64,000 nt of DNA from Oceaniglobus indicus (lineage in GTDB: Bacteria > Pseudomonadota > Alphaproteobacteria > Rhodobacterales > Rhodobacteraceae), in contig NZ_NMZM01000002.1 of assembly GCF_002751875.1 (NCBI RefSeq), positions 1-64,000 of the forward strand. The letters are read 5' to 3'. The notes below the pieces were generated by a model. The model was given only the letters and a program-made list of their open reading frames with translations, made no database searches and was not told the DNA's origin. Below are positions 1 through 19,979 of the stretch, one piece after another (positions within the stretch are counted from its first letter, which is position 1; the number at the start of each line of letters is the position of its first letter). The position numbers were made by a program, and so were the translations under genes.

Positions 1-1
1 T

Positions 2-151
2 GACAAGCGTCGGTACAAACGCCGCAACCGGATCGAGATCATGTTCGGCAGATTGAAGGACTGGCGACGGGTGGCAACCCGATACGACCGCTGTCCGAAG
101 GTCTTTCTGTCGACCATCGCGCTCGCAGCACTTGTCATCTATTGGCTATGA
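2..151 (+). pseudogene. IS5-family transposase, C-terminal fragment
   Basis: The open frame enters from the window edge and ends at the TGA at 149-151. It encodes a 49-residue tail with the pattern DKRRYKRRNRIEIMFGRLKDW followed by an arginine-rich stretch and a hydrophobic end, which is the usual carboxy end of IS5/IS427-group DDE transposases (it carries the catalytic Glu of the Y-(2)-R-(3)-E-(6)-K motif). Only the 3' end is visible, so it cannot be told whether the full element is intact to the left. It directly abuts a fragment of an IS3-family orfA. Confidence 0.75.
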
Positions 152-221
152 GTCCTGACCCTAAGGCCTCCAGCGCGACCTTCGCCTTGAACTCCGGCGC
201 ATGCTGCTTGCGTTTAGACAT
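152..221 (-). pseudogene. IS3-family orfA, 5' fragment interrupted by the IS5-type element
   Basis: Read on the minus strand from the ATG at 219-221, the frame begins MSKRKQHAPEFKAKVALEAL, the familiar start of the IS3-family OrfA helix-turn-helix protein. A strong ribosome binding site (AAGGAG) lies just upstream. The similarity stops after about 20 residues near a CTAA sequence at about 162-165, where the end of the IS5-type element begins. CTAA fits the YTAR target preference of IS5 elements, so this orfA was probably broken by that insertion. Confidence 0.65.
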
Positions 222-606
222 CTGTAATCTCCTTGGTGTTGAAGATCAGCAGACTGCATATCGTAGCTTATGTCAGTGTCCGAATTTCGGGGGGTAGCTT
301 ACCCCCTATCCCACAACACACAAGTGATAAAGCTGATTTCACTATCCGATTCGGCAAGCAGCTCTCACAAGGACGAAATAATACGATCACTTCACATGTT
401 CCAATTTCTAAGATTTGTGGAACATGCTGCTTTCAACACCGTGATTGTTGGCTTTTGGAAATCAGGATGTTCCAAAATCTGACTCCGCCGTGCGCTACAA
501 ATGCTCTCAAAACAATAGCTTGCATGACTTTCGGCAGTCTGCTCATCTTGTGGCATGAGGACTTCCAATCCGGCAGTTCTTGGAAAATCATAAGGAGGGT
601 TCGAAC
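222..606. other. Gene-free AT-rich stretch
   Basis: This 385-bp stretch has clearly lower GC than the rest of the window. Open frames across it lack a plausible ribosome binding site and resemble nothing I know. It ends with a good AAGGAGG-type site at about 592-599 that serves the small gene at 607. It may hold that gene's promoter, but I see no convincing -35/-10 pair. The composition points to foreign DNA. Confidence 0.5.
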
Positions 607-774
607 ATGACCGATGCAACAAGCCCCATGCACAAGATTATGGAAGCAGCGAACATTAACGCCGCGCCCAAGCCGACGCTGAGAGCCGACATCGATTTTA
701 GCGAACTCGAATTTGGTCTGATGGCGCCGCATCTGTCCGATGAAGAAGCGGACAAATTTATGGATGCACTTTGA
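607..774 (+). CDS. Small protein of unknown function (55 aa)
   Basis: The start at 607 (MTDATSP...) is chosen because a strong AAGGAGGG site lies 8-15 nt upstream. An in-frame ATG at 580 has no such site. The product is short, acidic at its C-terminal half (FSELEFGL, LSDEEADKFMDAL) and has no membrane segment, signal peptide or cysteine. I do not recognise a family. It is followed after 6 nt by a 39-aa frame, and both precede a serine-recombinase fragment, so they may be passengers or control genes of a lost mobile element. Confidence 0.5.
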   Translation: MTDATSPMHKIMEAANINAAPKPTLRADIDFSELEFGLMAPHLSDEEADKFMDAL

Positions 775-780
775 GAAATC

Positions 781-900
781 ATGATGACCTTCGTCGAGCT
801 TGGATTTGGCGTTCATCCAACTCAACAGGTCCTCAGTCCAGATGAAGTCCGGCAAGAGTTATTCGCGATGGCCGACAGAATTTTCAAAGCCGTCGCGTAA
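781..900 (+). CDS. Small protein of unknown function (39 aa)
   Basis: The frame begins with two ATG codons at 781 and 784 and ends with TAA at 898-900. The predicted peptide (MMTFVELGFGVHPTQQ...) has a hydrophobic N-terminal third and an amphipathic C-terminal helix (SPDEVRQELFAMADRIFKAV). It starts 6 nt after the stop of the 55-aa gene, which suggests translational coupling because no separate strong ribosome binding site is present. I recognise no family. The frame is short, so coding status is uncertain. Confidence 0.35.
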   Translation: MMTFVELGFGVHPTQQVLSPDEVRQELFAMADRIFKAVA

Positions 901-935
901 ATATTGCTGGTGCAAGGGAAAACAAGAGACGAATT

Positions 936-1066
936 GTGAAAGAACTGTGTGATAGAATCGCAGAGCGCTGCTTGATCTACTGCCGAGTTTCATCCGTGAA
1001 ACAAACAAAAGATGGTGCTGGCCTTTCTAGCCAAGAGCGAACCTGTCGTGAGTATGCAGAACGGGC
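936..1066 (+). pseudogene. Serine recombinase (resolvase/invertase type), N-terminal fragment
   Basis: From the GTG at 936 the frame reads CLIYCRVSSVKQTKDGAGLS and then SQERTCREYAE. This is the start of the catalytic domain of large serine recombinases: the YxRVS motif with its nucleophilic serine, then the SQ...C..YA helix. Homology ends at about residue 43. The frame continues for a few codons into DNA that is the antisense of an exbB gene, so the recombinase has lost most of its catalytic domain and all of its DNA-binding part. The breakpoint lies at about 1060-1068. Confidence 0.7.
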
Positions 1067-1552
1067 AACCCAGATGCCCCCCGCAAGCATGGACGGATCG
1101 ATCTGGCTTCCGGCGCGCTGCAAGGATTGAAACGCTTCGATCATGCCCAGAACAGTGCCGAAAAGTCCCAACAACGGTGCCAGTTGAGCCACGGAATCGA
1201 GCAATCGAAATCCGCGCTCAAGCATGGCGAATTGCGCCTCGGCCTCGGCCTCCAGACGGGCGCGGATGTCGGGCGCTGTGTGATGGTCGAGAGCCATGCG
1301 AAAGGTCGGCGCGAGATAGCTTGTGCTGGTGTCCAGGACGCTGATCGCCCGGACGCGCTCATTTCGATCCCAGGCGGCCACGGACCGCTGCAAGGCCGCG
1401 TGACGCCCGACGCCCGCCCGCCGGAATTGCCATATCTTGTAGAAAACGACGCCGGTTGTTACCACGGACACCGCGATCAGCACCGCCACCACCGGCCCGC
1501 CAAGATCGAACACCCGGCCAATGGCAGGGCCAAGTTTTTCCAGCGGGCTCAT
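1064..1552 (-). pseudogene. exbB: ExbB/TolQ/MotA-type proton channel protein, C-terminally truncated
   Basis: The minus-strand frame starts at the ATG at 1550-1552. It shows a first membrane segment (about residues 17-37), a cytoplasmic domain rich in charged residues, then the second membrane segment with the ExbB signature APLLGLFGTVLGMIEAF and the beginning of the third (SMLAGGIWVA, to residue 163). Homology stops exactly where the serine-recombinase fragment begins, so the end of the third helix and the C-terminus are lost. ExbB normally drives TonB-dependent uptake with ExbD. The neighbouring hmuV remnant points to haem uptake. Confidence 0.8.
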
Positions 1553-1589
1553 CTTAACAACTCGGTGCCGGTGCGACTGCTTGTTCCCA

Positions 1590-2116
1590 GAGCGTTACAC
1601 AGCGCGCTATGCGCCCCGCCTGTCCGCATGGGGTTGCTGCGCGGTATGTCGGGCCAGCGCAGCGACATACCCGCCCGCGCGCTCTGCGCTGTCGGACTGG
1701 AAGGATACGGCGCCAGATTCTATCAGGAGCTTTCGGGCGGCGAGCAGCAGCGCGCCCAACTGGCGCGCGTCCTGTGTCAGGTCTGGCACCCTGTTGTCGA
1801 GGGCAACCCCCGCTGGCTGTTGCTGGACGAACCGGTCGCGAGCCTCGACATTGGACACCAGCTTCTGGTGATGCGCTTGGTGAAGGACTTCGCGGCACGG
1901 GGCGGCGGCGTGGTGGCCGTGATGCACGATCTCAATCTCTCCGCCATGTTCGCCGACCGGATGACCATCATCACGGCCGGAAATCTGTTGCAGGCAGGTG
2001 CGCCTGCTGACGTCATGCAGGATGAAGTGCTTTCGCAAGCCTACGGTTGCGCTCTGAGGGTCAACACACCAGCGGCCGCAGGGCAGAGTTACCTGCTGCC
2101 GCATCACGCGCAGTGA
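1590..2116 (+). pseudogene. hmuV: Haem ABC transporter ATPase HmuV, C-terminal part
   Basis: The frame shows the ABC signature LSGGEQQR, a HmuV-type Q-loop-distal region, the Walker B motif WLLLDEPVASLD, the switch histidine in VMHDLNLS and the characteristic HmuV tail GCALRVNTP...YLLP. The Walker A half is missing. The sequence upstream of about 1640 does not resemble the family and runs into the divergent exbB start at 1552. The fragment cannot bind ATP properly. HmuV would energise the HmuTU haem permease at the inner membrane. The exact left breakpoint is uncertain by some tens of bases. Confidence 0.75.
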
Positions 2117-2128
2117 TGCCCCCCTTTT

Positions 2129-2325
2129 CATCGGACACCCCAGCGGTTTCGGTTTTGGGCCTGATGAACTCGCGGGGCGAGCGCCATTCCCGGCTGCTGT
2201 GGGGTGGTTTTCGCTAGAGTATCGATGACAGTGCAGTTTCGGCGTTTGGCCGCGGGTTGACGCGGACGTCGTTGCGCTTGAGCGTTTTCACGAATGTCTC
2301 TGACATGCCGTTGGAGTGCAGGCTG
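2129..2325 (-). pseudogene. IS3-family orfB transposase, degenerate C-terminal end
   Basis: On the minus strand from about 2325 the reading is HSNGMSETFVKTLKR and VRVNPRPNAET, the conserved region just past the catalytic Glu of IS3-family OrfB. A frameshift or internal deletion follows, and the end WRSPREFI resumes in another frame at about 2155-2180. The catalytic core is absent, so it is inactive. It directly abuts the degenerate Tn-copy that begins at about 2333. It is not in register with the orfA fragment at 152-221 and may come from another copy. Confidence 0.65.
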
Positions 2326-2332
2326 GCTACCC

Positions 2333-2645
2333 CTCGCAAATGCCCCCGCGCGTGGGGCCAAATTCGGACCGTCGCCGAAGCGAAGCGACTGATACCGGAC
2401 TGTTTCCGGCGCGACGCCGGCTGTCATGCACAGCAAAGACCCTCACCGTTCGACGCATTGAGGGCTTTTTTCGTGCTCGCCAGCCACTGGAAATTGCTGC
2501 CGTTCATCCGTTTATGTTGCGCATCAACACCCTGTGCCCCGCGATGTGATCCAGAACACAGCGCCGATTTTCCAAGAAACGGTCAAACAGAACTTCGAGA
2601 TCGAGCAGCGTCGCGCCTCATGAACCGCCTCGATCAGCAAAAAAA
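2333..2645 (+). repeat. Degenerate second copy of the tnsB-end / terminator / cargo junction
   Basis: Bases 2333-2619 align with 6821-7106 (offset about 4487) at roughly 80-85% by eye. The copy covers the last codons of tnsB, the inverted-repeat terminator (here mismatched, at about 2440-2472) and the 3' end of the convergent 146-aa gene. After the octamer CGCGCCTC at 2612-2619 the match jumps to 7769-7805, inside the neighbouring 140-aa gene. CGCGCCTC also stands at 7099-7106 and 7769-7776, so about 670 bp were lost between short direct repeats. All reading frames in this copy are broken. Confidence 0.75.
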
Positions 2646-3523
2646 AATCGAGAGTCGAAAGGCGTCCCCGAGTCACGTCAGCCATGATTCTAAAGATATG
2701 ACGATGCACCGATTTTGAACAACTCCTTCTCCGTCCTGAACCGATCATATTCATATGTTGGTCAGGGTGAACGCACGGCACTTGGCGGCCGTTTCGGGAA
2801 ATCCACTTGCGAGCAGAAAGGAGGCGAGATGGACTTTCCCGGCATCGCACGGCACGCCTGATGCGCGAGACCCCGTTGATCGCGCGGCGAAAAAGGCGGT
2901 TCACGCGCACCACGGACAGCGAACATGCCTGGCCTGTCGCCCCGAACCTCGTGGCGCCGGACTGCACGGCGGGTTGACCGGAGGTGCGGACATCTCCTGC
3001 AGCCGGACGGCAAAGGGGTGGCTCTACCTCGCGATCGTTCCGGACCTCTTCTTGCGCCGTGCAGCGCCGGCGCGGACCATCATCATATCGCTTGACCCTT
3101 CCCGGGGCTGGCGATGGCGCTTGCGATGCATCGATCCGCACGGATTCACATCATCTCCATTTCCTGAAAGCCACGGCCAGGGGCGTCGCGCATCGCGGCG
3201 GCCGCGTCGTTCGATGACGGCGTCAAGGTTGCGACGAATCACTGCGACGGTGTGACGGGCGCGCGCGAATGCCGTCGAATGCCATCCCCGTTCGAATGTG
3301 TTGCGCGAATACACAGCCTCAGCGCTCTGTTGGCGCGGCTTTCGGCACTTTCGAAAAGTCACGTCCCGGGCGCCGCGAGGCGGTGCCTGAGTCGATGACA
3401 CGTACCGCGTTGTTTTATCTCGACTTTATATTTCACCAGATCCCTATGGGATCATCCGGCGGTCTCCGGAAATTTTTTCTTCATTTAATTTTCGGCCAAA
3501 AATCGCGATTGCCTGCCCCGATC
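2646..3523. other. Stretch without supportable gene
   Basis: About 880 bp separate the degenerate copy from the putative left end of the Tn7-like element. Several open frames exist in this GC-rich DNA, but none has a convincing ribosome binding site or recognisable motif. The last 120 bp (about 3405-3515) are AT-rich. I see only decayed sequence here. Confidence 0.5.
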
Positions 3524-3545
3524 TGACGGGTAGTTTCTGGGTCTC
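3524..3545 (+). repeat. Candidate left end of the Tn7-like element
   Basis: TGACGGG followed by TAGTTT matches, in inverted orientation, the outermost bases of the right end (CCCGTCA at 9025-9031) and the ATAGTT core of the right-end repeats. Only one such unit is clear on this side, so the placement is tentative. Confidence 0.3.
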
Positions 3546-3856
3546 AAGCGAGGGCAAACGACGCAAACCACCCACCGGGGCGCAGAATTTTCTTCGTGAA
3601 ACGCACAACCGGCCAATCTTGCCATTGACGATATCGGGTCCCGGCGGGCGAGGGAAAGACCCCCTCCACCGCGAGACGACGATCAGAACCAGGATCGTGC
3701 TGCACCCCGACACCGATACCGCAGGTTGCAAGACCTGCATCCCATGCGCCCGAAACCGGGCAGCATCTCGAACAGACTGAAATTCAATATCGCAGCCTGC
3801 GGGCAGCGTCGGAGCGTTTTCCGGCGGGCGGTATCGTTATGTGGGAAGGACAGGAA

Positions 3857-4528
3857 ATGCCGATTTTTTCGGAGGGCACCGTGTTGCCTGAACACTCGCG
3901 CGCAGACCGCAAGATCCAGAACGTGTCGAAATGGCATTGCACCGCCCATGCCGTGCGCGGCGCCGGACCGGGCAGGCGCATGCAGGGGGAGAGCAAGCTG
4001 GAAATGGACCATCAGGCCATTCAGTTTTTGCAGCCCGATGTCGTCGACGTCGTCGAACAGGTCGAGTTCAAGTTCGGCTGGCGAAACGAGACGCGTCATG
4101 TCTTCGACATGCTGGTCACCACGACGGCCGGTGAGCAGATCGCATACACCGTCAAGCCGACATCGCGCCTCAATTCGAAAGATTTCCTCGGGAAAATGCA
4201 GGTGGTCGCCTGGTGGGTGCAGAAGAAGGAATTTGCATCGTCGGTGCGACTGCTGACCGAAGCGGATATCGACCCGATCGTCCTGCACAACGCCAACCTG
4301 AACGCGGCGGTACACGACAGCGATCCCGAGGCCGAGATCGCCGTGCGCGAGGTCGCCCGCAATCTCCGCGGGTCCGTCACCATTCGGACCCTCACACAAG
4401 AGGTCGGCCTGAAGGAACGCGGCTATCGCGCGATCCTGCGACTGATCTCGAACCGCGAGCTCAGGTCGGTGCACCACGAACGGACAACGCCGCACACCCT
4501 CATCGAATGGAAAGGCATTCAGTCATGA
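3857..4528 (+). CDS. tnsA: TnsA-like transposon endonuclease
   Basis: TnsA makes the 5'-strand cuts at Tn7 ends and turns replicative into cut-and-paste transposition. This 223-aa product has the family pattern: GESKLE with the acidic residue at about position 45-49, a hydrophobic strand with the catalytic-type Asp in HVFDMLVTT (D84), and the lysine of YTVKP (K100). A C-terminal winged-helix-like part with LTQEVGLKERGYRAIL follows. The start at 3857 is preferred because AAGGA lies 6 nt upstream. An in-frame ATG at 3839 is possible. The stop overlaps the tnsB start as ATGA (4525-4528), so the two are translated together. The PD of most TnsA proteins is FD here. Confidence 0.7.
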   Translation: MPIFSEGTVLPEHSRADRKIQNVSKWHCTAHAVRGAGPGRRMQGESKLEMDHQAIQFLQPDVVDVVEQVEFKFGWRNETRHVFDMLVTTTAGEQIAYTVKPTSRLNSKDFLGKMQVVAWWVQKKEFASSVRLLTEADIDPIVLHNANLNAAVHDSDPEAEIAVREVARNLRGSVTIRTLTQEVGLKERGYRAILRLISNRELRSVHHERTTPHTLIEWKGIQS

Positions 4529-6879
4529 ACGCAATTGTCGAAACCCGCGCCTTCGTCCACGCGGCGCCGGTCAAAACCGGCTTCCGGATCGAGGAATCCG
4601 ACCGCCTGACGATTGAAGGGCGGCATTTCGACTGGGCCGGACGATCGGGTGATACGATCTTCCTGCAGCCGTCGAGTGGTCAGGGGATGACCGAGCAATT
4701 CACCATGGGGACACTCTCGCGGCTCAGCGCATCCGGGGCAATCAAACATGAGGTGGGGTATTACCTGCCGGATGATCTGAAGACCGCTCCGCAGGCAAAA
4801 GGCGTCCAGTTTCGGCCCGAGGACCTGAACCCGGCTCAAAAGAAGCGGTTCTACAATCGCTTCGTGCAGATCATGGCGCTGGAGGACATGATCTCGGAGG
4901 GTATCATCCTGCCGCGCAAAACCGACATCAAAGCCTTTTCCAAGGAAATCGAAGATCGCGCGGCCGTGTATCTGAAGAAGGAGATCACCGAGCGCGACCT
5001 GCTGGATCATGCATTGAAGCATCGGGAGTTGCCGGCTGCGGTTGCGAAGACGGTGCGTAAGAGCCGTGGGGGCACGAACCGGGAGAGTGTCGCCCTCTAC
5101 ACGCCGGACTATCTGCGCAAGCTCTACCAGAACTACCGGAAACACGGGCTTTCCGCCCTGGCGGACTCGCTGTCGAGGTCGGGCAACCGGACGGGTTCCG
5201 GCCGGCCCGAAGAACAGGCATTGCTGATGAAAACCATCAGGACCAGCTATCTGACGCTCGAGCGGAAGACCCTGAAAGCAACCGTCATCGACGTCCAGCG
5301 GGCGTTCCGTGACGAGAACAAACGCCGTGAAAAACTGGAACACGAGGGGCCGCACGACAACGAACCCCGTCTGCCTCTTCGCGTCCCTGGACGGGATGCT
5401 GTCCGCAGCGCGATCGGCAAGCTGGATCCCCTGCGGGTCATGATCGCGCGTTACGGCCGGGAGCATGCGATCAAGAAGTTGCGTCCGGTCGGAAAGGGAC
5501 TGGAGGTCTCGCGGCCGGGGGAGCGCGTCGAGATGGACGAATGGTGCATCGACCTGCAGTCGATCATCCACTCTGCCAACCTCAGGGAATTCTTCGGCGA
5601 TGACCTTCTGGACCTGATCGGCCTCGACGGTGATACGGCCCGGTGGTGGCTTGTCCTGGCGATCGATTGTCGGACCAAGGTCATCCTGGGGATGAAGCTG
5701 ACCCGGAACCCCTGCACCAGCGCGGCGCAGGAATGCCTGCGCATGATCGTGAGCGACAAGGGCCGGCTGGCGGCCGCCTCGGGCGCACCGACGCCGTGGT
5801 CCATGGCCGTGAAACCCGAGGTGCTGGTCACGGACAACGGCCCGGCTTTCAAGTCGGAGGCCTTCACCAATTGTTGCCTGGACCTGCGCGTCGCGACACT
5901 GCGGACCCACGCCGGTGTTCCGGGAATGCGCGGTACGGGCGAGCGTATCTTCGGCACGCTCAGCACCGACCTGATGCCGCGGCTGAGGGGGCGCACCTTC
6001 TCCAACTCGATCGAACGCGGGGATTACAAATCGGAACACCGGGCCTGTCTCGATGCGGAAGATGTCGCCTTCATTCTGGTCCGATGGGTGGTCGATATCT
6101 ATCACAATTCCGCGCATCGCGGTCTCGGCGGGCTCACTCCGCTCGAGCAGTGGAACGCCGATATGGAAGACGGGAATTACCCCTTGAGCGGGTTGCCCGA
6201 TCTCGACACGAAACGTCTTGCCTTCGGCAAGCGCCTTGCGCGCAAGGTGGCGCAGGAGGGCATCGTGGTCATGGGGGTGCAGTATCAGAGCGCTGAGCTG
6301 GGCATGTACTTCATGGGAACGGAGCGCAGGCTGGTCGACGTTCGCTGGGATCCCGAAGACCTTGGCGCCATCAGTGTTTACCTCGAGGGCAAATGGCAGG
6401 TAATCCCCGCCGTGCATGACCGTTTCGTCGGCATGCACTTCCATGACTGGATGAAGGTTCGCCGCGCGCTGCGGGCGAAATCGGCCTCGCGCAAGGCCTG
6501 GAACCAGGAAATCGTGTTCAACGCGATCGATCAGATCGAGAACCTGGTCAAGGACCGCTCGATGGCGTTCGGGATCATCCACACGACCATCGGCGACACG
6601 GAGTTCAAAAGGATCGAGGAGGACTTCTTCTCGTCGTTCCGAATCGACGACACACCTCGTCTGCAAGCCGATGACGGGGGCCTTGGCCGGGTAATCGCGC
6701 CGCGCGCTCCGGACGCCGACATCGCCCCCGCGGGGTCCAGGGCCGATCCGATGGGCGCCACGGTGAAGCCGTTCCCGGAGTCCACCCCGGGTGAGGTCAC
6801 CGGAGACAGCAACCTCACCGCTCGCAAATCCCCCGCGCGTGGGGCCAAATTCGGGCTGCCGCCCAAGCGCAACGACTGA
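4525..6879 (+). CDS. tnsB: TnsB-like DDE transposase (Mu-transposase C-terminal type)
   Basis: The 784-aa protein has an N-terminal DNA-binding region, an rve/DDE integrase core and a Mu-type C-terminal barrel. The catalytic triad is readable: D338 in VEMDEW, D437 in VTDNGPAF and E473 in GTGERIFG, spaced as DD35E. YHNSAHRGLGGLTPLEQW lies after the core as in TnsB/TniA/MuA proteins. TnsB binds the transposon ends and joins 3' ends to target DNA, normally with TnsA and the ATPase TnsC. The gene overlaps tnsA by four bases. A strong terminator stands 42 bp after its stop, so no tnsC follows in the operon. The carboxy tail ends in a basic KSPARGAKFGLPPKRND segment. Confidence 0.85.
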   Translation: MNAIVETRAFVHAAPVKTGFRIEESDRLTIEGRHFDWAGRSGDTIFLQPSSGQGMTEQFTMGTLSRLSASGAIKHEVGYYLPDDLKTAPQAKGVQFRPEDLNPAQKKRFYNRFVQIMALEDMISEGIILPRKTDIKAFSKEIEDRAAVYLKKEITERDLLDHALKHRELPAAVAKTVRKSRGGTNRESVALYTPDYLRKLYQNYRKHGLSALADSLSRSGNRTGSGRPEEQALLMKTIRTSYLTLERKTLKATVIDVQRAFRDENKRREKLEHEGPHDNEPRLPLRVPGRDAVRSAIGKLDPLRVMIARYGREHAIKKLRPVGKGLEVSRPGERVEMDEWCIDLQSIIHSANLREFFGDDLLDLIGLDGDTARWWLVLAIDCRTKVILGMKLTRNPCTSAAQECLRMIVSDKGRLAAASGAPTPWSMAVKPEVLVTDNGPAFKSEAFTNCCLDLRVATLRTHAGVPGMRGTGERIFGTLSTDLMPRLRGRTFSNSIERGDYKSEHRACLDAEDVAFILVRWVVDIYHNSAHRGLGGLTPLEQWNADMEDGNYPLSGLPDLDTKRLAFGKRLARKVAQEGIVVMGVQYQSAELGMYFMGTERRLVDVRWDPEDLGAISVYLEGKWQVIPAVHDRFVGMHFHDWMKVRRALRAKSASRKAWNQEIVFNAIDQIENLVKDRSMAFGIIHTTIGDTEFKRIEEDFFSSFRIDDTPRLQADDGGLGRVIAPRAPDADIAPAGSRADPMGATVKPFPESTPGEVTGDSNLTARKSPARGAKFGLPPKRND

Positions 6880-6921
6880 TACCGGACTGTTTCCAACGCA
6901 ACGCCGACTGTCATGCACAGC

Positions 6922-6958
6922 AAAGGCCCTCACCGCTCGACGCAGTGAGGGCCTTTTT
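6922..6958. terminator. Bidirectional intrinsic terminator between tnsB and the convergent cargo gene
   Basis: AAAGGCCCTCAC (6922-6933) and GTGAGGGCCTTT (6945-6956) form a perfect 12-bp stem with an 11-nt loop, followed by further T residues on the plus strand and preceded by A residues that serve the minus strand. It lies between the 3' ends of tnsB and the 146-aa gene. A mutated form is present in the degenerate copy at about 2440-2472. Confidence 0.85.
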
Positions 6959-6990
6959 CATGCGCGCCGGTTGCCGGAAATCGCTGCCGT

Positions 6991-7431
6991 TCACCCCGTC
7001 ATGTTGCGCATCAACACCTTGTGCGCCGCGATATGATCCAGAACAGAGCGCCGGGTTTCGACGAAGCGGTCGAACAGGTTTTGCAGATCGAGCAACTCCG
7101 CGCCTCTCCGGGTATACACCGGGACCTCTCGAACTTCACCGTGCTGCCCGGCCTCATCGAACCGGGTTTCGACAAACCGATGGTCCGTTCCGGTTTTCTC
7201 GGCCTCGATATCGCGTTCGAGAATGTCGCGGACCGCGTCGAGGCCACCTTCGACAGAGGCGCAGAACGGTTCGCGGTCACGCAGCGATGCAAGGCAGCGC
7301 GCCACGAAAGCCACGTCCCGGGCGGTGCGTCCGAGGTGCAGCACGCGGGCCTGCTCGGCAACCTCGCGGCCGAGCCGGATCGCGGTGGCGGCAAGATCGT
7401 CGATATTGGAGGAAAGCTGGGTGGTGTTCAT
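6991..7431 (-). CDS. Unknown protein, 146 aa, Tn cargo
   Basis: The start at 7431 (MNTTQLSSNIDDLAATAIRLG) is chosen over an upstream frame extension because GGGAGA stands at the right distance before it. The product is soluble, largely helical and charged (REVAEQARVLHLGRTARDVAFVARCL, RDILERDIEAEKTG) and ends DHIAAHKVLMRNMTG. There is no signal peptide or membrane segment. I recognise no family. Its 3' end converges on tnsB across a shared terminator, and a degraded copy of that 3' end exists at about 2475-2619. Its ribosome binding site lies in a 12-bp inverted repeat (7435-7500), so translation may be controlled. It is probably the last gene of a three-gene unit. Confidence 0.6.
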   Translation of the reverse strand: MNTTQLSSNIDDLAATAIRLGREVAEQARVLHLGRTARDVAFVARCLASLRDREPFCASVEGGLDAVRDILERDIEAEKTGTDHRFVETRFDEAGQHGEVREVPVYTRRGAELLDLQNLFDRFVETRRSVLDHIAAHKVLMRNMTG

Positions 7432-7434
7432 GAT

Positions 7435-7500
7435 CGGATCTCCCGAAATCGGCGCGCCGGGACGGCGAGCCTTCAAGACGGCCGGACCTCGGGAGATCCG
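7435..7500 (-). promoter_or_regulatory. Inverted repeat that would mask the ribosome binding site of the 146-aa gene
   Basis: CGGATCTCCCGA at 7435-7446 and TCGGGAGATCCG at 7489-7500 are perfect 12-bp inverted repeats with 42 nt between. In the minus-strand transcript the second arm contains the GGGAGA ribosome binding site just 3 nt before the ATG at 7431. Pairing with the first arm would hide it. The role in translational control is inferred from position only. Confidence 0.5.
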
Positions 7501-7524
7501 GCCGTTTCGCATTTGCGGGGTCCG

Positions 7525-7947
7525 CTATGCCGCGGTCTCGAGCGTCAGCGTGCCGCATGCACAGCCGTCTGGTGCATCATCAGTGGCAATGTCGGCCAGC
7601 AAGGCCGCGAGGCGATCGGAGAGCCGACAGCACGCGATCACGAAGGGCGAGTCCGGGTCGATCTCGGCGAAGCGGGCCGTCTCGATGCGGTCGGGATCGC
7701 CCACATCCTGCAGGGTCAGCAGCCTGTGCAAGGCGATCAACTGACGGCGCTGTGCGCGGGTCAGGCGCCGCGCCTCACGAACCGCCTCGATCAGCAGAAA
7801 GACCCTTGCGCTGACCGCGGCGCCACCGAGGGTATGGGCCTTGCGCGCCAGGTCCGTTCCGTGATCGGCGAGGAACCTGCGGACCTGTTGCAGGTCGCCA
7901 TCCGGCGCGACTGCGGCGCCCGTTTCGATCTTGCGATGAATGGTCAT
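7525..7947 (-). CDS. Unknown protein, 140 aa, Tn cargo
   Basis: The start at 7947 (MTIHRKIETGAAV) is preferred because AGGAGGGAGAG lies about 10-19 nt upstream. The longer frame beginning at 8202 has no support. The product has a basic middle (FLLIEAVREARRLTRAQRRQLIALHRLL), an aspartate-rich stretch, and ends DDAPDGCACGTLTLETAA with two cysteines. No membrane segment is seen. I do not recognise it. A short mutated piece of this gene (HEARR region) survives in the degenerate copy near 2620-2645. It is probably co-transcribed with its neighbours, with 164 bp to the gene before and 93 bp to the gene after. Confidence 0.6.
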   Translation of the reverse strand: MTIHRKIETGAAVAPDGDLQQVRRFLADHGTDLARKAHTLGGAAVSARVFLLIEAVREARRLTRAQRRQLIALHRLLTLQDVGDPDRIETARFAEIDPDSPFVIACCRLSDRLAALLADIATDDAPDGCACGTLTLETAA

Positions 7948-8111
7948 TGGGGGACTCTCCCTCCTGTTTCGCTGCACCCATGCGGCAGCTTCAAGCGCCC
8001 GGCATCTCCTCTCATTGGGCCTGTGTGACCGGACCGGCTGTAGCAGCAGCATTGTCCGCTGGTCGTGGGTAAAATCGAAAGCAACCTTGCCTTTGCCCGG
8101 CAGAGGCCGGG

Positions 8112-8771
8112 TTACGGGATCGCGGGATGGATGCGCGCCGCAAACGCCTCGGGATCCGCATCGCGCAACCGCAGGGCCTCGTCGGACAGCGTCAACATCC
8201 AACTACCCTTGCGCAGCCTGCCGGGCATGCCGGTCAGCATGCAGCGGCCCGCACTGCACAGTTCCGCCCAGGCCTTGATCTGGCCCACGCGGGCGCGGGC
8301 GTACTGCCTCCCGGTCGTCTCGACGTAGAAGCGGAGCGTGCCGAACTTCTCCTTGATCTGCGTGATCCGGATCGCAATCGGTCGGTGTTCCGGCTGCCGC
8401 ATGACGTCGCTAAGGCCCGCCATGGCGCATTCCAGAACGGACAGCCATCCGGCGGGGATATGACGCAGATGTTCCGTGCCCAGTATCCCGGCGTCCTCGG
8501 CCAGGTTGCACAGCGCGCAAACGCGTCGCTGATACTCCGCAGGCGATCGCGGCGCGTTCCCCCAGCGCGGGGGCGTGACCGGTGTGGCGCGAACCGCAGC
8601 AATCGCCCAGGTCCCGGGCCAGGTCGACATTGCCTGTTCGGCCAAGGCGAACAGATCCGGCGTGGCCTCCGCCTCGGCCGACGTTTCGGCGAAGATGACG
8701 TCGCGATCACCGCTCCGAACATGGACCTCCCGTTTTACCGCAAACCGGTTTATCTGGCTTCCACCACCCAT
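8112..8771 (-). CDS. Unknown protein, 219 aa, Tn cargo
   Basis: The ATG at 8769-8771 is preceded by GGGAG at a proper distance. The product has no signal peptide or membrane segment. It contains a DVIFAETSAEAEATPDLFALAEQA helix, a tryptophan-rich part (STWPGTWAIAAV), a single RRVCALCNLAED CxxC pair, and a segment RITQIKEKFGTLRFYVETTG that recalls small plasmid/phage proteins of unknown role, followed by two further cysteines (LCSAGRCML). I cannot assign a function. It is the first gene of the minus-strand trio and starts about 190 bp inside the right-end repeats, so its promoter probably lies in the end region. Confidence 0.6.
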   Translation of the reverse strand: MGGGSQINRFAVKREVHVRSGDRDVIFAETSAEAEATPDLFALAEQAMSTWPGTWAIAAVRATPVTPPRWGNAPRSPAEYQRRVCALCNLAEDAGILGTEHLRHIPAGWLSVLECAMAGLSDVMRQPEHRPIAIRITQIKEKFGTLRFYVETTGRQYARARVGQIKAWAELCSAGRCMLTGMPGRLRKGSWMLTLSDEALRLRDADPEAFAARIHPAIP

Positions 8772-8961
8772 CTCGATCTCCCTGAATGACGCCGGGGTTG
8801 TTTCCGGCTCTCGCAGAGAAGGGCCGGAAACATCGCCGGAGGTGTTCGGAAGACCAACTCCTGCTGCCTCATACTCGAAGAAGTCAGCCCGGCGTGGGCC
8901 GGAGTCCTCCCCTCCAAACCAGGTTCGGAAAAATACCAGCGTTTACAATAACTTCAAAGAC

Positions 8962-9023
8962 TTGGCAAAACTATCCCCGCCGCGTGGCAAACCAAACCCC
9001 CGGTTTTGGCATAACTATGCCCG
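8962..9023 (-). repeat. Three 22-bp-period repeats, putative transposase-binding right end
   Basis: Units of 18 bp start at 8962, 8984 and 9006, exactly 22 bp apart. The first, TTGGCAAAACTATCCCCG, matches the third at 16 of 18 positions and the middle at 13 of 18. Evenly spaced repeats of about 22 bp are how TnsB-binding sites are arranged in Tn7-like right ends. The outermost unit is 2 bp from CCCGTCA (9025-9031) and 12 bp from the nrdJ stop codon. Confidence 0.5.
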
Positions 9024-9034
9024 TCCCGTCACCA

Positions 9035-11551
9035 TCACCCCGTGCACTTCGAGAAGCCGCATGTTGCGCAGATTTTGCAGCCTTCGATCATGCGCAGGTC
9101 GAAGCTGCCGCACGAACTGCAGGCTACGCCGCCGGATCTGCCCAGCGGGGAGGTGTCGGCCCGGGGGTCCGCTTTCAGGCCCATCCCCTCGCCTTCGATG
9201 AAGCCGATTGCGATCATGTGGCGTTCGATCACGCCACCGATCGCGGCCAGGATCGACGGGATGTACTTGCCTTGCACCCAGGCGCCGCCGCGGGGATCGA
9301 AGACGGCCTTCAATTCCTCGACCACGAAGGACACGTCGCCGCCGCGTCGGAAGACGGCGCTGATCATGCGGGTCAAGGCGACGGTCCAGGCGAAGTGCTC
9401 CATGTTCTTGGAATTGATGAAAACCTCGAACGGGCGGCGGTGTCCGCTGATGACGATGTCATTCACCGTGATGTAGAGCGCGTGTTCGCTGTCGGGCCAT
9501 TTCACCTTGTACGTGTTGCCCTCAAGGGCCTGCGGCCGGTCCAGCGGATCGGACATGTAGATCACGTCGCCATGGGGCTGTTGCGGCTCGCCATCGGTCG
9601 TCGCGCGGACTTCGGGGTCAGGTGTCCGAGTATTTACGTCGATGAGAAGTTCGGAAACAGGGACGTTGAGCGCCGTGGCAATCGGCAGGAGAACCGATTG
9701 TTCCGGCTGTGCGGTTCTGCCTTCGGCGATGTCCCGAATGACGGTCGGCTCCAGCCCCGTGGTCCGCGCCAGGCTTTCGATCGTGAGGCCGCGGTCGGCG
9801 ATCAGCTGTTTCAGTTTTCCGGCCAGGGTGTGGCCGGGCGCCGGCGCTTCCGTTTCGCTGGAAATGCTGAGAACCGATCCGGTCACCGCATTCGGCCGAT
9901 AGGTGGTGCAGCCTTTGCAGCCACTGTCCCACGCCGCCATGTAGACGTCCTTGAACGCATCGAAGCTGATGTCCTCGGGACAGTTGATCGTCTTCGAGAT
10001 CGATGAATCCACCCATTTCTGTGCCGCCGCCTGCATCTTGACGTGTTCGAGCGGGGCAAGCGTCTGGGCGTTGACGAAGTGGGCCGGCAGGTCTGCGTCG
10101 CCCATCCGGTCGCGCCACATCTGGACGGCATAGTCGACCACCTCCTCCTCGGTGCGCGATCCGTTCTTTTGCAGCACCTTGCGCTTGTAAGCGTAGGCGA
10201 AGACCGGCTCGATCCCCGATGATACGTTGCCGGCGTAAAGCGAGATGGTCCCGGTGGGCGCAACCGACGTCAACAGGGCGTTGCGAATGCCGTGTTCGGC
10301 GATGGCCGCGCGCACGTCGGCATCCATCTGCTGCATCGCACCGGACGCAAGGTATTTTTCGGCGTCGAACAGCGGAAACGCGCCCTTCTCGCGTGCCAGA
10401 TCCACCGACGCCAGATACGCGGCGCGGGCGATCCGGTGCATCCAGTGTTCGGTCAGACGCGCTGCCTCGTCCGAGCCATAGCGCACCCCGACCATCAACA
10501 GCGCATCGGCCAATCCGGTGACACCCAGACCGATGCGGCGCTTGGCCTGGGCTTCGGCGGCCTGTTGGGGCAGCGGAAAGCGCGACGCATCGACCACGTT
10601 GTCCATCATCCGCACGGCGACGCGCACCAGGTCGTCCAGCGTGTCCTCGTCCAGCGCGGCATCGTCGGCGAAAGGGTCGGGAATCAGCCGCGCCAGGTTG
10701 ACCGACCCCAGCAGGCAGGCGCCATAGGGCGGCAGGGGTTGTTCGCCGCAGGGGTTCGTGGCGGCGATCGTTTCGCAATACGCAAGGTTGTTGGCAGCGT
10801 TGATCCGGTCGATGAAGATCACGCCGGGTTCCGCGTAATCATAGGTGGCGCGCATGATCGCGTTCCACAGATCCAGTGCGCGGATGGTGCGATAGACGCG
10901 ACCATCGAACACCAGGTCCCAGGGGCCATCCGCCTTGACGGCCTCCATGAACGGATCTGTCACCAGGACCGAGACGTTGAAGTTGCGCAGCCGCGCCGCG
11001 TCGGATTTCGCGGCGATGAAATCCTCGATATCCGGGTGGTCGCAACGCAGGGTTGCCATCATCGCGCCCCGGCGCGATCCGGCGGACATGATCGTGCGGC
11101 ACATGGCGTCCCAGACATCCATGAACGACAGCGGGCCGCTGGCGTCCGCCGCCACGCCCTTGACGTCGGCCCCCTTGGGGCGGATCGTCGAGAAATCATA
11201 ACCGATCCCGCCGCCCTGCTGCATCGTCAGCGCGGCCTCTTTCAGCATGTCGAATATGCCGCCCATGGAATCCGGGATCGTGCCCATGACGAAACAGTTG
11301 AACAGGGTTACCGACCGTCCGGTGCCCGCCCCCGCGGTGATCCGGCCCGCCGGCAGATAGCGAAAGTCCGACAGCGCGTCAAAGAACACCTCTTCCCAAT
11401 GGGCCGGATCGCTTTCGACGGCCGCCGTGGCGCGCGCGATGCGCCGCCACGTGTCCTGCACGGTGCGGTCCACCGGGGTGCCGTCGGCCTCTTTCAGGCG
11501 ATATTTCATGTCCCAGATCTGCGCGGCGATGGGGGCGGCAAAGTCGGTCAT
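9035..11551 (-). CDS. nrdJ: Adenosylcobalamin-dependent (class II) ribonucleotide reductase
   Basis: It reduces ribonucleotides to deoxyribonucleotides with AdoCbl as radical source and needs no oxygen. The 838-aa protein shows LFNCF (C86), NPCGEQ with the radical-site cysteine C268, the GLGVTGLADALL and TGTISLYAGNVSSGIEP regions and a C-terminal redox pair within CSSCGSFDLRMIEGCKICATC. The start at 11551 (MTDFAAP) is chosen over the frame start at 11590 by family length. A helix-turn-helix-like segment lies at about residues 574-637, between the GCKGCTTYRPN motif and the C-terminal domain, where I would expect only a linker. The gene stands alone and its stop abuts the putative Tn end. The cobalamin genes further right would supply the cofactor. 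Confidence 0.9.
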   Translation of the reverse strand: MTDFAAPIAAQIWDMKYRLKEADGTPVDRTVQDTWRRIARATAAVESDPAHWEEVFFDALSDFRYLPAGRITAGAGTGRSVTLFNCFVMGTIPDSMGGIFDMLKEAALTMQQGGGIGYDFSTIRPKGADVKGVAADASGPLSFMDVWDAMCRTIMSAGSRRGAMMATLRCDHPDIEDFIAAKSDAARLRNFNVSVLVTDPFMEAVKADGPWDLVFDGRVYRTIRALDLWNAIMRATYDYAEPGVIFIDRINAANNLAYCETIAATNPCGEQPLPPYGACLLGSVNLARLIPDPFADDAALDEDTLDDLVRVAVRMMDNVVDASRFPLPQQAAEAQAKRRIGLGVTGLADALLMVGVRYGSDEAARLTEHWMHRIARAAYLASVDLAREKGAFPLFDAEKYLASGAMQQMDADVRAAIAEHGIRNALLTSVAPTGTISLYAGNVSSGIEPVFAYAYKRKVLQKNGSRTEEEVVDYAVQMWRDRMGDADLPAHFVNAQTLAPLEHVKMQAAAQKWVDSSISKTINCPEDISFDAFKDVYMAAWDSGCKGCTTYRPNAVTGSVLSISSETEAPAPGHTLAGKLKQLIADRGLTIESLARTTGLEPTVIRDIAEGRTAQPEQSVLLPIATALNVPVSELLIDVNTRTPDPEVRATTDGEPQQPHGDVIYMSDPLDRPQALEGNTYKVKWPDSEHALYITVNDIVISGHRRPFEVFINSKNMEHFAWTVALTRMISAVFRRGGDVSFVVEELKAVFDPRGGAWVQGKYIPSILAAIGGVIERHMIAIGFIEGEGMGLKADPRADTSPLGRSGGVACSSCGSFDLRMIEGCKICATCGFSKCTG

Positions 11552-11686
11552 GGGCGGTGTCCTGACGGCATTGTGGCGGAGCCGCGACAATACGCCAAAC
11601 CGTCAGCGCGGGCAATGCGGCACCACAAGCTCTTGCAGCTTTCGGCACACCCCCTACCATATGGGCGGATCACTGGGGGTGAGTCG

Positions 11687-12118
11687 ATGGCGGACCATGT
11701 CAACATGCTGAAACTCAGCGTCGGATCGGAGTCGGTCGAGTCCCTGATCGACTGGCAATGTGCGCGCAGCGGCCAGTTCGCCGATGGCGCCTATTACCAC
11801 ATCACGCGCATGTGGCCGAAACGGACCGCCGAAATACTGGCCGGCGGATCCATATACTGGGTCATCAACGGGTTGATCCAGTGCCGCCAGAAGATCACCG
11901 GCTTTCGCGAGGTGATCGGCAACGACGGGATTCGCCGCTGCGGCATCGTCCTGGACCGCGACGTGATCCGCACCGATACGGCGATCAAGCGGCCATTCCA
12001 GGGGTGGCGATACCTGGCGCCCGAGGACGCCCCCGCCGATCTGCGCAAGGGCGCTGCGTCGGACCCGGCGCTTCCCGCCGAACTGGCCGCCGCACTGTCG
12101 GAAATCGGCGTGCGCTGA
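11687..12118 (+). CDS. DUF1489 family protein
   Basis: The 143-aa product starts MADHVNMLKLSVG and has the conserved family features HITRMWPKR, GGSIYWVINGLIQCRQKI and the C-terminal RPFQGWRYL. The family is widespread in alphaproteobacteria and its function is unknown. It is soluble, without signal peptide. The ATG at 11687 is preceded by a GGGGGTGAG site. It diverges from nrdJ across about 135 bp and its 3' end faces hisG, 6 bp away. It is probably monocistronic. Confidence 0.8.
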   Translation: MADHVNMLKLSVGSESVESLIDWQCARSGQFADGAYYHITRMWPKRTAEILAGGSIYWVINGLIQCRQKITGFREVIGNDGIRRCGIVLDRDVIRTDTAIKRPFQGWRYLAPEDAPADLRKGAASDPALPAELAAALSEIGVR

Positions 12119-12124
12119 CGCGGA

Positions 12125-12823
12125 TCAGTCCAGCAGGTCCAGCTTCGCCTTCAACGCTTCCTTCGCGCCCAGCGCCGCTTCGTCCCAGGGGGCGGTCAGC
12201 GACATGAACAGCGTGGCCTGCGATTTGTGCACCGGTCCGCCGGACAGGATGCGCAAATGGTTGGCCCGCAGGGTTTCACCGGTTGAGGTGATGTCGGCCA
12301 CCGCCTCGGCGGTTTCGTTGCGCACCGTGCCTTCGGTTGCGCCTTGGCTGTCGACCAGTTGATAGTCGGCGACGCCGTGCAGGCGCAGATGATTGCGGAT
12401 CAGCCGGTGATACTTGGTTGCGATGCGCAGTCGGAAGCCGTGTCGCGCACGGAACGCGGCGGCGACGGCATCGAGGTCGTCCAGGGTTTCGACATCGACC
12501 CAATGATCGGGCACGGCAATCACCAGGTCGGCGTGCCCGAACCCCATCTCGGCCATCTCGGTCACCACCGAATCCCACATCGGCAGCTTTTCGCGGACCA
12601 GATCGGACCCGGTGACGCCCATGTGGATGCGTCCCGCCGCCAGTTCGCGGGGAATTTCACCCGCCGACAACAGCACCAGATCGATATCGTCCACGCCGTC
12701 GACAGCGCCCGCGTATTCGCGCTCGGATCCGGCGCGTCCCATGCCCACGCCATGGTTGCCGAACCATTCGAACGTCTTTTCCATCAGCCGCCCCTTGGAC
12801 GGCACGCCCAGTTTCAGGGTCAT
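12125..12823 (-). CDS. hisG: ATP phosphoribosyltransferase catalytic subunit (short form)
   Basis: HisG catalyses the first step of histidine synthesis, joining ATP and PRPP. At 232 aa it is the short HisG form that lacks the C-terminal regulatory domain and depends on HisZ. Visible motifs are LGVPSKGRLMEKT at the N-terminus, GVTGSDLVRE and the PRPP-binding ATGEGxT-like segment DITSTGETLRANHL. Its start overlaps the stop of hisZ as ATGA (12820-12823), consistent with balanced synthesis of the HisG-HisZ complex. It is the last gene of the hisS-hisZ-hisG operon. Confidence 0.93.
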   Translation of the reverse strand: MTLKLGVPSKGRLMEKTFEWFGNHGVGMGRAGSEREYAGAVDGVDDIDLVLLSAGEIPRELAAGRIHMGVTGSDLVREKLPMWDSVVTEMAEMGFGHADLVIAVPDHWVDVETLDDLDAVAAAFRARHGFRLRIATKYHRLIRNHLRLHGVADYQLVDSQGATEGTVRNETAEAVADITSTGETLRANHLRILSGGPVHKSQATLFMSLTAPWDEAALGAKEALKAKLDLLD

Positions 12824-13920
12824 CGCCCGCCCTCCGTGCCCAGACGCAGGGTCAGATCCGGGCGGATGACACCGCCCACCGCCGGGATCGCCCGCCCCTG
12901 CCCCAACACCCGCGTCAGCGCGTCATAGCGGCCACCCGTGGCGACGGGCGGCAGATCGGGGCGGCCGTCGGCGAAAAAGCCGAAGACGAAACCGTCGTAG
13001 TATTCCATCGACGTGCGCCCATAGCTTGCCTCGAAATCCAGCGTCTCGACGTCGATCCCCCGGTCGCCCAGCGCATCCAGCCGCCGTTCCATGCCCTGCA
13101 CCGCCGGCTGGATCGCCGGCAGGTCGACGGCAAGATCCTGCAGATGGCTCAGCGCGACGGGGGCCTTGGCCTGCAACGCCAGCAGGTCGTCGATCAGTTC
13201 GACCTCCAGCGCCGAAATCGGCGGCTCGTCGGCCTCGGCGCGCAGGGTGGCCAGACGCGCCTCGACCTCGGCGCGCGAACGCAGGCCGATGACCGGACCC
13301 GCCTTGGCGAACGGATCGGCCTGATCCAGAATCTTGCGGCGGGGCTTCGACGCGCTGCCATCGCTGAACCGGTCCAGCAGCGCGCGGAACCGCCGCGGCC
13401 GCCACAGGTGGCGCAGCAATGCCGCCTTGCGCGGCGCCGATGTCCGTAATCCGCGGATCGCGGCGCTGAGGATGCCGATATCGCCGATGGCCACCCGCAG
13501 GTCCAGCGGCGCCAGCGCGCCGGCGATGGTGGCGAAAACCTCGGCGTCCGACAGGGCCGGGTTGCCGCAATCGAACACCTCGTAGCCCGCCTGAAGGTAT
13601 TCGGTCGCACGCTCGGGATCATCCTCCTGGCGGCGAAACACCTGTCCGGAATAGCAATAGCGCGCGCGGTTCGCACCGTCGGTCATGTGCATCTGCACCA
13701 CCGGCACCGTGAAGTCGGGGCGCAGCATCATTTCACCGCGCAGCGGATCCTGGGTGGTGAAGGCCCGGGCGCGGATGTCCTCGCCATAGAGATCCAGCAA
13801 CAGGTCCGCCGGTTGCAGCAGGGTCGTCTCGACCGCCCGCGCACCCGCCGCCTCGAACAGCGCGCGCAAACGCGCTGCTTCGGCCAGTTTCGCGCGTGCC
13901 TTGTCCTGTGTCGCGCTCAT
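12820..13920 (-). CDS. hisZ: ATP phosphoribosyltransferase regulatory subunit
   Basis: HisZ is a catalytically inactive histidyl-tRNA synthetase paralogue that activates short HisG and gives it feedback control. This 366-aa product has class II synthetase-like motifs ([40 protein letters not shown]) and ends with ATGGRYDAL and the arginine-type motif region AVGGVIRPD. It starts at 13920 with an ATGA overlap with the hisS stop, and its own stop overlaps the hisG start in the same way. An upstream frame extension to 14001 lies inside hisS and is discarded. Confidence 0.9.
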
Positions 13921-15422
13921 GTATCGCGCGCCAGCCGTTTTTCGATTTCGGCGACCATGTCGGCGCGCGCACATTCGAACTGCGCGGGCTGATCCTTCCA
14001 TTCCTCATGGGTGACGCTGGCGGCCAGTTTCGCGCCAAGGTCCAGATCCTTGATCTGCACCACGCCGCGCTCCGCCTCGTCCGCGCCCTGGATCACGGCG
14101 ATGGGAGAGTTCCGCTTGTCGGCATATTTCAACTGGTTGCCGAAATTCTTGGGGTTGCCCAGATAGACCTCGGCCCGAATGCCGGCGCGGCGCAGGTCGG
14201 ACACCATCGCCTGGTAATCGGCCATCCGGTCACGGTCCATGACGGTGACGATCACGGGGCCGCGTTCGTCGCCCTCGGTTGCCCCCTTCGCCTCCAGCGC
14301 GGCCAGCAACCGGTCGACCCCGATGGAAACGCCGGTGGCCGGCACTTCCTGCCCGGTGAACCGTTTTACAAGGTCGTCATACCGGCCTCCGCCTGCGACC
14401 GACCCGAACTGGCGCGGACGGCCCTTCTCGTCGGTGATCTCGAAGGTCAGCTCCGCCTCGTAAACCGGACCGGTGTAGTAGCCGAGGCCACGGACCACCG
14501 AGGGATCAATGACGATACGATCGGGGCCATAGCCTTGGGCGGTCAGAAGGTTGCTGATGGTTCGCAATTCCTCGACCCCGCTTGCGCCTGTGGCCGAGCC
14601 TTCCACCAGTAGACCCAACCGTTGGATCGTTTCTTCGGCGTTGGCCTGTCGGCCGTTGACGAAACCGAGTATCAGTTGAACCTGATCACCACCGATCTGG
14701 GCACCTTCCGTGTGATCGCCGCTTTCGTCTGTCCGGCCTTCGGTCAAAAGCGCCAAAACACCAGCGTCACCAAGCCGATCATGCTTGTCGATGGTGCGCA
14801 AGACGACGCCACGCTGCCATTCGGTCCGCTCGTCGCCGCTGTCCTTCGGCAGGTTCGCGGCTTCGAGCACACCTTCCAGCACCTTGCGGTTATTCACGCG
14901 CACCACGTAATCGCCGCGCGCAATTCCCACGGCTTCCAGCACATCACACAGCATCGCGCAGATCTCGGCGTCGGCGGCGACCGACGGCGCGCCCACGGTG
15001 TCGGCGTCGCATTGATAGAACTGGCGGAACCGCCCCGGCCCCGGCTTTTCGTTGCGCCATACCGGGCCCATCGCATAGCGGCGATAGGGCGACGGCAGGT
15101 CGTTTCGGTATTGCGCCGCAACGCGGGCCAACGGCGCGGTCATGTCATAGCGCAGCGCCAGCCAATCGGCGCCCGACCCGGTGTCGTCCTCCTGCCAGGC
15201 GAAGACGCCTTCGTTGGGACGGTCTACATCGGGCAGGAACTTGCCCAGCGCCTCGACCGTTTCGACCGCCGGCGTTTCCAGCGCGTCGAAACCATAGAGA
15301 TGATACACCTTCGCGATGGTCTCCAGCATGTCGCGCCGGCGCGTCACCTCGGCGCCGAAATAATCGCGGAACCCCTTGGGCGCGGCGGCCTTGGGGCGGG
15401 GCTGTTTCTTGGGCTTGGCCAT
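13917..15422 (-). CDS. hisS: Histidyl-tRNA synthetase
   Basis: HisS charges tRNA-His. The 501-aa protein has the class II motifs: motif 2 [22 protein letters not shown], the histidine-specific motif [21 protein letters not shown], motif 3 [13 protein letters not shown] and a C-terminal anticodon-binding domain. It is longer than the E. coli enzyme because of an insertion at about residues 205-265 (RLGDAG...GFVNGRQAN), common in alphaproteobacterial HisS. ATG at 15422 is chosen; the frame also opens with TTG two codons earlier. It heads the hisS-hisZ-hisG operon, with overlapping start and stop to hisZ. Confidence 0.93.
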
Positions 15423-15536
15423 GGTCAATCTCGCTGATGCGGGTCGCGGCAGGCCTTATCGGATGGGCGCCACGGGGGCAAGGCGGGCCCGCACGCACAG
15501 CGCCCCGCGATGCCGAAAACCCGCGTCCGCCCCGGC

Positions 15537-17623: not shown

Positions 17624-17658
17624 TCTATACTCCGGTGTGACTTGATGTGACCTGTTGT

Positions 17659-17676
17659 GCATGCATTAATGTATGC
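17659..17676. promoter_or_regulatory. Palindromic operator between divergent operons
   Basis: GCATGCATTAATGTATGC is an imperfect 18-bp palindrome (two mismatching positions) in the 78-bp space between the dehydrogenase operon (start 17623) and the monooxygenase operon (start 17702). AT-rich palindromes of this shape are typical of GntR/FCD-type regulators, but no regulator gene lies nearby. It could control both directions. Confidence 0.5.
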
Positions 17677-19975: not shown

Positions 19976-19979
19976 TCGA

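Follow-up and report, generated by a model that had tools for sequence, protein, structure and literature searches.

Transposon Tn7 encodes the proteins TnsABCD and has glmS as its attachment site. The Tn7-like locus described here, a coupled pair of genes for a TnsA-like endonuclease and a TnsB-family transposase, is located in a 64,000-nucleotide stretch of the Oceaniglobus indicus genome (positions 1 to 64,000 of contig NZ_NMZM01000002.1, hereafter referred to as the window). The pair is followed by three minus-strand open reading frames (ORFs), h1, h2 and h3, and then by nrdJ, the gene for the adenosylcobalamin-dependent ribonucleotide reductase (Table 1). A preliminary description of the stretch had suggested either a two-gene transposition unit that works without its own TnsC, or borrows it, or a relic. 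Comparisons with related genomes point to the relic: with a probability of roughly 0.85, what remains here is the right-end half of a Tn7-like transposon that has decayed and lost its left half, and that belongs to a family homing to the nrdJ 3' end. The attachment sites named for Tn7-like elements in the available text of three papers are glmS, tRNA genes, parE and comM (PMC10293859, PMC8649781, PMC11406308), and the string 'nrd' does not occur in the available text of two of these (PMC10293859, PMC8649781). According to the available text of one of them, tnsC is present in 96% of the delineated Tn7-like transposons (PMC8649781). No link between nrdJ and Tn7 and no paper on tnsA, tnsB or tnsC in Roseobacter was found in the literature searched, the scope of which excluded most subscription papers and bioRxiv preprints. 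A Tn7-type attachment site at nrdJ in the Rhodobacterales is apparently unreported.

Three 16-base TnsB-type sites with an exact spacing of 22 bp (8963, 8985 and 9007; span 8962-9023) are located between h3 and nrdJ, which faces tnsB, and only three bases (9032-9034) separate the nrdJ stop codon from the terminus at 9031. The position of this right end, immediately beyond the 3' end of nrdJ, is the feature by which the nrdJ-homing family of Tn7-like elements is recognised. In a weight-matrix scan, this right end was the only site cluster in the 64-kb window, and there was none in 195 kb of shuffled sequence; the matrix was built from known ends of the TnsB clade to which the window belongs, and 3 of its 16 training sites were the window's own. 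The terminus reads TGA, as compared to TGT or TAT in the seven other right ends of the clade. Its distance from the last cysteine codon of nrdJ is 12 bp, as compared to 22-27 bp in 11 relatives measured by eye (G349, G183, P. seriniphilus, CZR27, G047, G402, G007 and G394-G397).

Right ends of the window type also follow nrdJ in G394, G395, G396 and G397 and adjoin the first of two elements in G349, and tnsAB are located beside nrdJ in Rhodobacter CZR27 and Paracoccus seriniphilus as well. All seven genomes of the clade have the right end either beside nrdJ (G000, which is the window genome, and G394-G397) or within a stack that adjoins it (G349, G398), and three right ends stand in a row at nrdJ in G349, the third of which was read by eye. 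Recurrence at different sites, which the preliminary description had named as support for a new element type, was not seen. A TnsB search of 394 genomes of the family, in which at most two candidates were scored per genome, yielded matches in 103. The 32 places with E < 1e-80 were divided into 18 on the same contig as nrdJ, 11 on another contig and 3 in genomes without nrdJ at E 1e-60. All but one of the 18 were within 45 kb of nrdJ, although three of these 17 were on contigs <100 kb, where closeness means little; the exception, in G316, was 2.7 Mb off. Further Tn7-like ends after nrdJ in many other genomes were judged by eye only. An automatic repeat-spacing test of the nrdJ flanks gave p < 0.05 in 9 of 38, with one additional flank too short, and is alone no proof of ends in the remaining flanks. 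The nrdJ flanks of G316, G270, G046 and L093 contain repeated GTGCGCAA- or TGCGCAA-like motifs, which are possibly the ends of another Tn7-like type.

The fuller elements in the relatives indicate what the window may once have contained. Element 1 of G349 (25,426 bp) and the element in P. seriniphilus (26,266 bp) have two ends and perfect 5-bp duplications, CCTAT and ACAAG, respectively. Both are split, with tnsAB at the nrdJ end and outward-reading tnsC-tniQ at the opposite end, a layout of these two elements of 25.4 and 26.3 kb that looks new; matches to tnsB, tnsC and tniQ were consecutive on one strand in 35 of the 49 loci scanned. Element 2 of G349 (41,842 bp) is likewise split; its tnsB is broken, its tnsC contains a stop and its flanks are unmatched (CCTAT/CTTGT). 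This element is the neighbour of the window in the TnsB tree (fork support 87/73), and the fork that unites both with L033 is supported by 95/91. In Phaeobacter sp. CECT 5382 (G396), contig C1 carries the right end next to nrdJ, and contig C32 (locus L034) carries tnsA-tnsB, cargo, tnsC, tniQ and the left end; tnsC lies on the same strand as tnsB and about 3.6 kb beyond it. The flank TGTTG is common to the right and left ends on the separate contigs.

The TnsC and TniQ proteins of L034 and G349 element 2 are 80% and 64% identical, the highest values in the comparison. The tnsC and tniQ genes can be traced at least to the common ancestor of these two loci, the descendants of which include the window according to the TnsB tree. 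The absence of tnsC looks like a loss, and loss of the left half fits best with the comparison. The preliminary description had treated the layout as ancestral, and would have been contradicted by close relatives with tnsC and tniQ directly after tnsB. What stands is that a tnsAB pair facing the nrdJ end is common to the window and G349 element 2, whereas the lack of tnsC does not seem to be ancestral. The relatives come close to this contradiction: L034 and G349 element 2 do carry tnsC-tniQ, but not directly after tnsB.

G183, a genome of the same genus, contains a window-type left end beside a TniQ fragment that is 54% identical to the TniQ of L034, and this left end is 3-4 kb from the tnsAB of another clade; no TnsC was found in the genome. 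The arrangement fits a deletion within a stack. In the same genome (G183:C6:74600-75100, L170), window-type left and right ends are located 8 bp apart beside the TniQ fragment, in tandem elements at nrdJ. The cargo of the relatives includes type I restriction genes. L034 additionally encodes a SIR2-domain protein next to a HerA-type helicase, plus a reverse transcriptase, and L032 encodes a UvrD-type helicase. The 3' end of nrdJ looks like a new recurrent attachment site at which stacked elements carry defence cargo. A second TniQ gene, convergent with the tniQ of the element and outside its left end, was observed in L088 (8799-10622), and a similar convergent pair in L061.

The lack of tnsC and tniQ that had been noted from the window extended to the whole genome within the reach of our searches. 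No TnsC was detected at E 0.001 with a single TnsC query, the best place for a 20-row TnsC profile had an E-value of 0.055, and no TniQ was detected at E 0.001 with the Pfam model PF06527. The latter matched in 7 of 10 genomes or records searched and in 0 of 14 control genomes; for the TniQs of G349 and G396, its E-values were 1e-15 to 1e-19. The genome contains a right end of the window type, but no left end was found in it with up to 2 mismatches allowed. Among the hallmarks of an autonomous Tn7-like element, a TnsB with Mu-transpos_C and a TnsA fold are present, and TnsC, TniQ and a second end were not found. Within the clade, the left end and the clade tnsC are both present in G349 and G396 and both absent from G000, G394, G395 and G397, while G398 has a truncated tnsB, no left end and a TnsC that belongs to another element. 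No left end of the window type was found in G394, G395 or G397; two stray 2-mismatch matches in G394 are isolated sites, with neither an array nor tns genes, and do not represent ends. The TnsC and TniQ fragments in G394 (S. brevis) are apparently of another type, and the TniQ gene in G395 is located in another element type.

We also examined tnsA and tnsB, for which the initial observations were confirmed. The ATGA overlap is located at 4525-4528 with both reading frames intact, the catalytic triad of TnsB consists of D338, D437 and E473, the last two separated by 35 residues, and TnsA has the residues E45, E49, D84 and K100. The tnsA start was corrected to 3857, since four relatives (L031, L032, L034 and G349) have a stop as the second codon of the longer ORF. 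In an alignment of 31 TnsA rows, E49 and D84 were invariant, position 45 was E in 28 rows, and position 100 was K in 24 and R in 7. The Pfam model PF08722 matched the window TnsA below its cut-off of 26.5 bits (20.7 bits, E 6e-4) and matched 8 of the 34 TnsA rows scanned, and the TnsA sequence had no significant match in the PDB. A check of the fold had been proposed earlier, and the three best PDB hits of the AlphaFold2 model (predicted local distance difference test, pLDDT, 90.4) were all Tn7 TnsA (E 8e-9 to 2e-7), with 1t0f and 1f1z among the top matches. As judged from this model, the first protein is a TnsA-fold nuclease. For TnsB, Pfam gave Mu-transpos_C above the cut-off (7e-8) and rve just below it (4e-7), and the closest PDB relative by sequence was Tn6677 TnsB (E 3e-24).

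The three minus-strand genes had been suggested to take the place of the usual partners. None of h1, h2 and h3 has a Walker A motif, and homologues of h1 or h2 accompany tnsC-bearing elements: they were found near nrdJ in six genomes with tnsB-tnsC-tniQ further along the same contig (G009, G071, G222, G231, G232 and G353). We rejected the three as substitutes for TnsC, a role in which they are unlikely. In 17 of the 45 genomes or records examined, an h1 or h2 homologue was located no more than 3 kb from the nrdJ 3' end, namely in 12 of 40 nrdJ flanks and in the window, G349, G183, CZR27 and P. seriniphilus. Five of the flanks continue for <1.1 kb beyond nrdJ, and another (L150, G263) excludes the nrdJ end. 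h1 has no Pfam or NCBIfam match. The h2 model is all-helical (pLDDT 77.6), with no significant fold match in the PDB or among viral models, and no homologue of h3 was found in the 108 loci scanned apart from the window's own copy. A tblastn search of plasmids for h2 found 2 records and was insensitive, since it missed two plasmid elements with a profile-detected h2. NZ_CP039965.1 (Pseudorhodobacter turbinis) contains a tnsB piece (77% DNA identity over 353 bp) and an h2 homologue >100 kb apart, possibly the remains of other copies.

Several observations weigh against a decayed half-element. The tnsA and tnsB genes are intact in the window, L031, L032 and L034, and no decay is visible in the ratios of nonsynonymous to synonymous substitution frequencies (dN/dS), which were 0.07-0.14 for pairwise comparisons of the window with the close clade and 0.18-0.19 for L031 versus L032, even though both of the latter genomes are without a TnsC of the window type. 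The searches could also have missed genes or ends: the genome scan with PF08722 missed the window's own tnsA, which indicates that Pfam models can miss this family, the left-end search at 2 mismatches could miss a diverged left end, and the site-cluster scan missed the known left end of L034. Furthermore, the window contig starts 3.9 kb upstream of tnsA, and G394, G395 (a metagenome-assembled genome) and G397 are drafts, such that missing sequence may explain part of the pattern. The selection test, based on dN/dS and on lineage-specific changes by codon position, did not separate the window from L034, which retains tnsC.

Intact and constrained tnsAB also speak for a two-gene unit, in which TnsA and TnsB mobilise the element without TnsC, perhaps partnered by h1-h3. 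Clade-type TnsC was not found in 4 of the 7 clade genomes, and L031 and L032 share a 4.4-kb tnsAB block with 90% identity in different surroundings, both of which also count in its favour. However, no window-type left end was found in those four genomes, and therefore none of them is shown to contain a complete element. Given also that tnsC-tniQ are ancestral to the window's part of the clade and that h1/h2 homologues, which have no Walker A motif, also occur with tnsC-bearing elements, we set the TnsC-free element aside as very improbable. A living non-autonomous element, which would combine its own TnsAB with TnsC and TniQ from incoming nrdJ-homing elements, is compatible with a decayed right half. 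The stacking at nrdJ, the constraint on tnsAB and the preserved right-end sites would suit such borrowing, but because no left end was found in the window genome there is no donor of the window's TnsB type. With no TnsC detected in the genome now and the right terminus altered, we give borrowing only a slim chance.

It could also be that the left end, tnsC and tniQ exist in the strain and were not assembled, which is compatible with the other explanations. The window begins at base 1 of one of 26 contigs (C16), inside an IS5 copy. On the other hand, the completeness of the genome is rated at 99.98%, tnsC and tniQ would not be expected to be repetitive, and the same joint absence was observed in three other genomes, all of which makes an unassembled remainder improbable. 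A more elaborate scenario is that the nrdJ-homing lineage repeatedly sheds tnsC, tniQ and the left end, with tnsAB and the right end being kept by selection for a benefit to the host or the resident stack, such as an action on later arrivals at nrdJ; we consider this quite unlikely. The decayed right-end half remains the favoured explanation.

If the family works like Tn7, the TniQ of an intact relative would bind the nrdJ end, and TnsC would bridge the bound end to TnsAB on the ends of the element. Insertion would then occur about 22-27 bp past the last nrdJ cysteine codon with 5 bp duplicated, and both the position and the duplications are observed in relatives. Newcomers would land beside nrdJ and shift older elements outward; the stacks are seen, and this order of arrival is our reading of them. 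The stacked elements would decay through deletions. In the window genome, the left end, tniQ, tnsC and any cargo of the left part are missing, whereas tnsAB and the right end persist together with the small genes of that end. Such an element should not transpose alone, but its intact TnsAB might still work with TnsC and TniQ provided in trans, given a left end.

Table 1. Features of the tnsAB locus and its surroundings in the window.
Feature	Position	Strand	Remarks
IS5-family transposase gene, 3' end	1-165	+	contig start; megablast 83-87% identity among the matches listed
Second related element, remnant	2329-2645		tnsB 3' end, terminator, h1 tail fused to h2 piece
Leader 5' of tnsA	3470-3856	+	conserved in clade; no frame open in all members
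tnsA	3857-4528	+	223 amino acids, TnsA-like endonuclease
tnsB	4525-6879	+	784 amino acids, DD35E transposase, Tn7 TnsB family
Intrinsic terminator after tnsB	6922-6957	+	fold -28.1 kcal/mol, z -5.6
h1	6991-7431	-	accessory gene; homologues in related elements
h2	7525-7947	-	small helical accessory protein; recurs near nrdJ-proximal right end
h3	8112-8771	-	219 amino acids
Transposon right end	8962-9031	-	three TnsB-type sites, 22-bp spacing; outer terminus 9031
nrdJ, adenosylcobalamin-dependent ribonucleotide reductase, attachment gene	9035-11590	-	ORF coordinates; likely true start near 11551

As described before, the tnsB stop is 42 bp upstream of the terminator, and the terminator fold was equalled by none of 200 shuffles, but it was not among the sites listed by a simple terminator scan. 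The leader is about 70% identical between the window and its relatives, 77-79% among L031/L032, L034 and G349, and 90% between L031 and L032. It contains a peptide-like GSFWxSSEG stretch that is followed by a stop in the relatives but not in the window.

The region to the left of tnsA is scrambled and contains pieces of ExbB and ABC-transporter genes, a second tnsB tail and an IS5 fragment. The assignment to IS5 is based on megablast, for which 14 of the 15 rows shown (67 records) were annotated as IS5 transposase. At 977-2116, a gene fragment for an ExbB-type channel (E 2e-19) is accompanied by a fragment for an ABC-transporter ATPase (E 7e-5, just below the cut-off). The second junction of tnsB, terminator and cargo, reported earlier at 2333-2645, was recovered: 2329-2619 matches 6817-7106 with 84% identity over 291 bp, and 2608-2643 matches 7765-7800 with 92% identity. 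The terminator of this copy has a weaker fold (-17.1 kcal/mol, z -3.1), which was equalled by 5 of 200 shuffles. An Rfam scan of window positions 1-20000 had a single match, a cobalamin riboswitch on the plus strand (18834-19051; RF00174, 88 bits), about 7 kb beyond the B12-dependent nrdJ.

The tempting claim of transposition without TnsC, which is probably wrong, is hereby replaced by an account that can be tested. Elements that carry defence systems pile up at nrdJ. As a landing site guided by protein, nrdJ would be new, and so would the TniQ proteins by which it is expected to be read. The stacks also expose the decay of elements and the competition between them.

Compared to known systems, the locus resembles Tn7 in the TnsA fold, in the DDE transposase TnsB with Mu-transpos_C, in the several TnsB-type end sites and in the insertion just beyond the 3' end of a conserved gene, and its relatives also in the 5-bp duplication. 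It differs from Tn7 in that the site is nrdJ and in that no tnsC, tniQ or left end was detected in the window genome, and the split relatives differ in having tnsAB at the end next to the attachment gene and tnsC-tniQ at the opposite end. The type I-F3 Tn7-like element Tn6677 has a TnsB of the same family, whereas CRISPR-guided homing is not shown for the window, for which no search for cas genes was made. The Tn7-like element on a Ketogulonicigenium vulgare plasmid (L037) encodes a TnsB that is 38.8% identical over 97% of the query, but has tnsA, tnsB, an ATPase gene and the TniQ gene all in one row, beside a gene of the fumarylacetoacetate hydrolase family. The element in Phaeobacter sp. CECT 5382 (L034 and G396:C1) has the TnsB clade, end type and nrdJ location in common with the window, and differs from it in having kept tnsC, tniQ, the left end and the TGTTG flanks, with tnsAB and tnsC-tniQ on one strand and about 3.6 kb of cargo between them.

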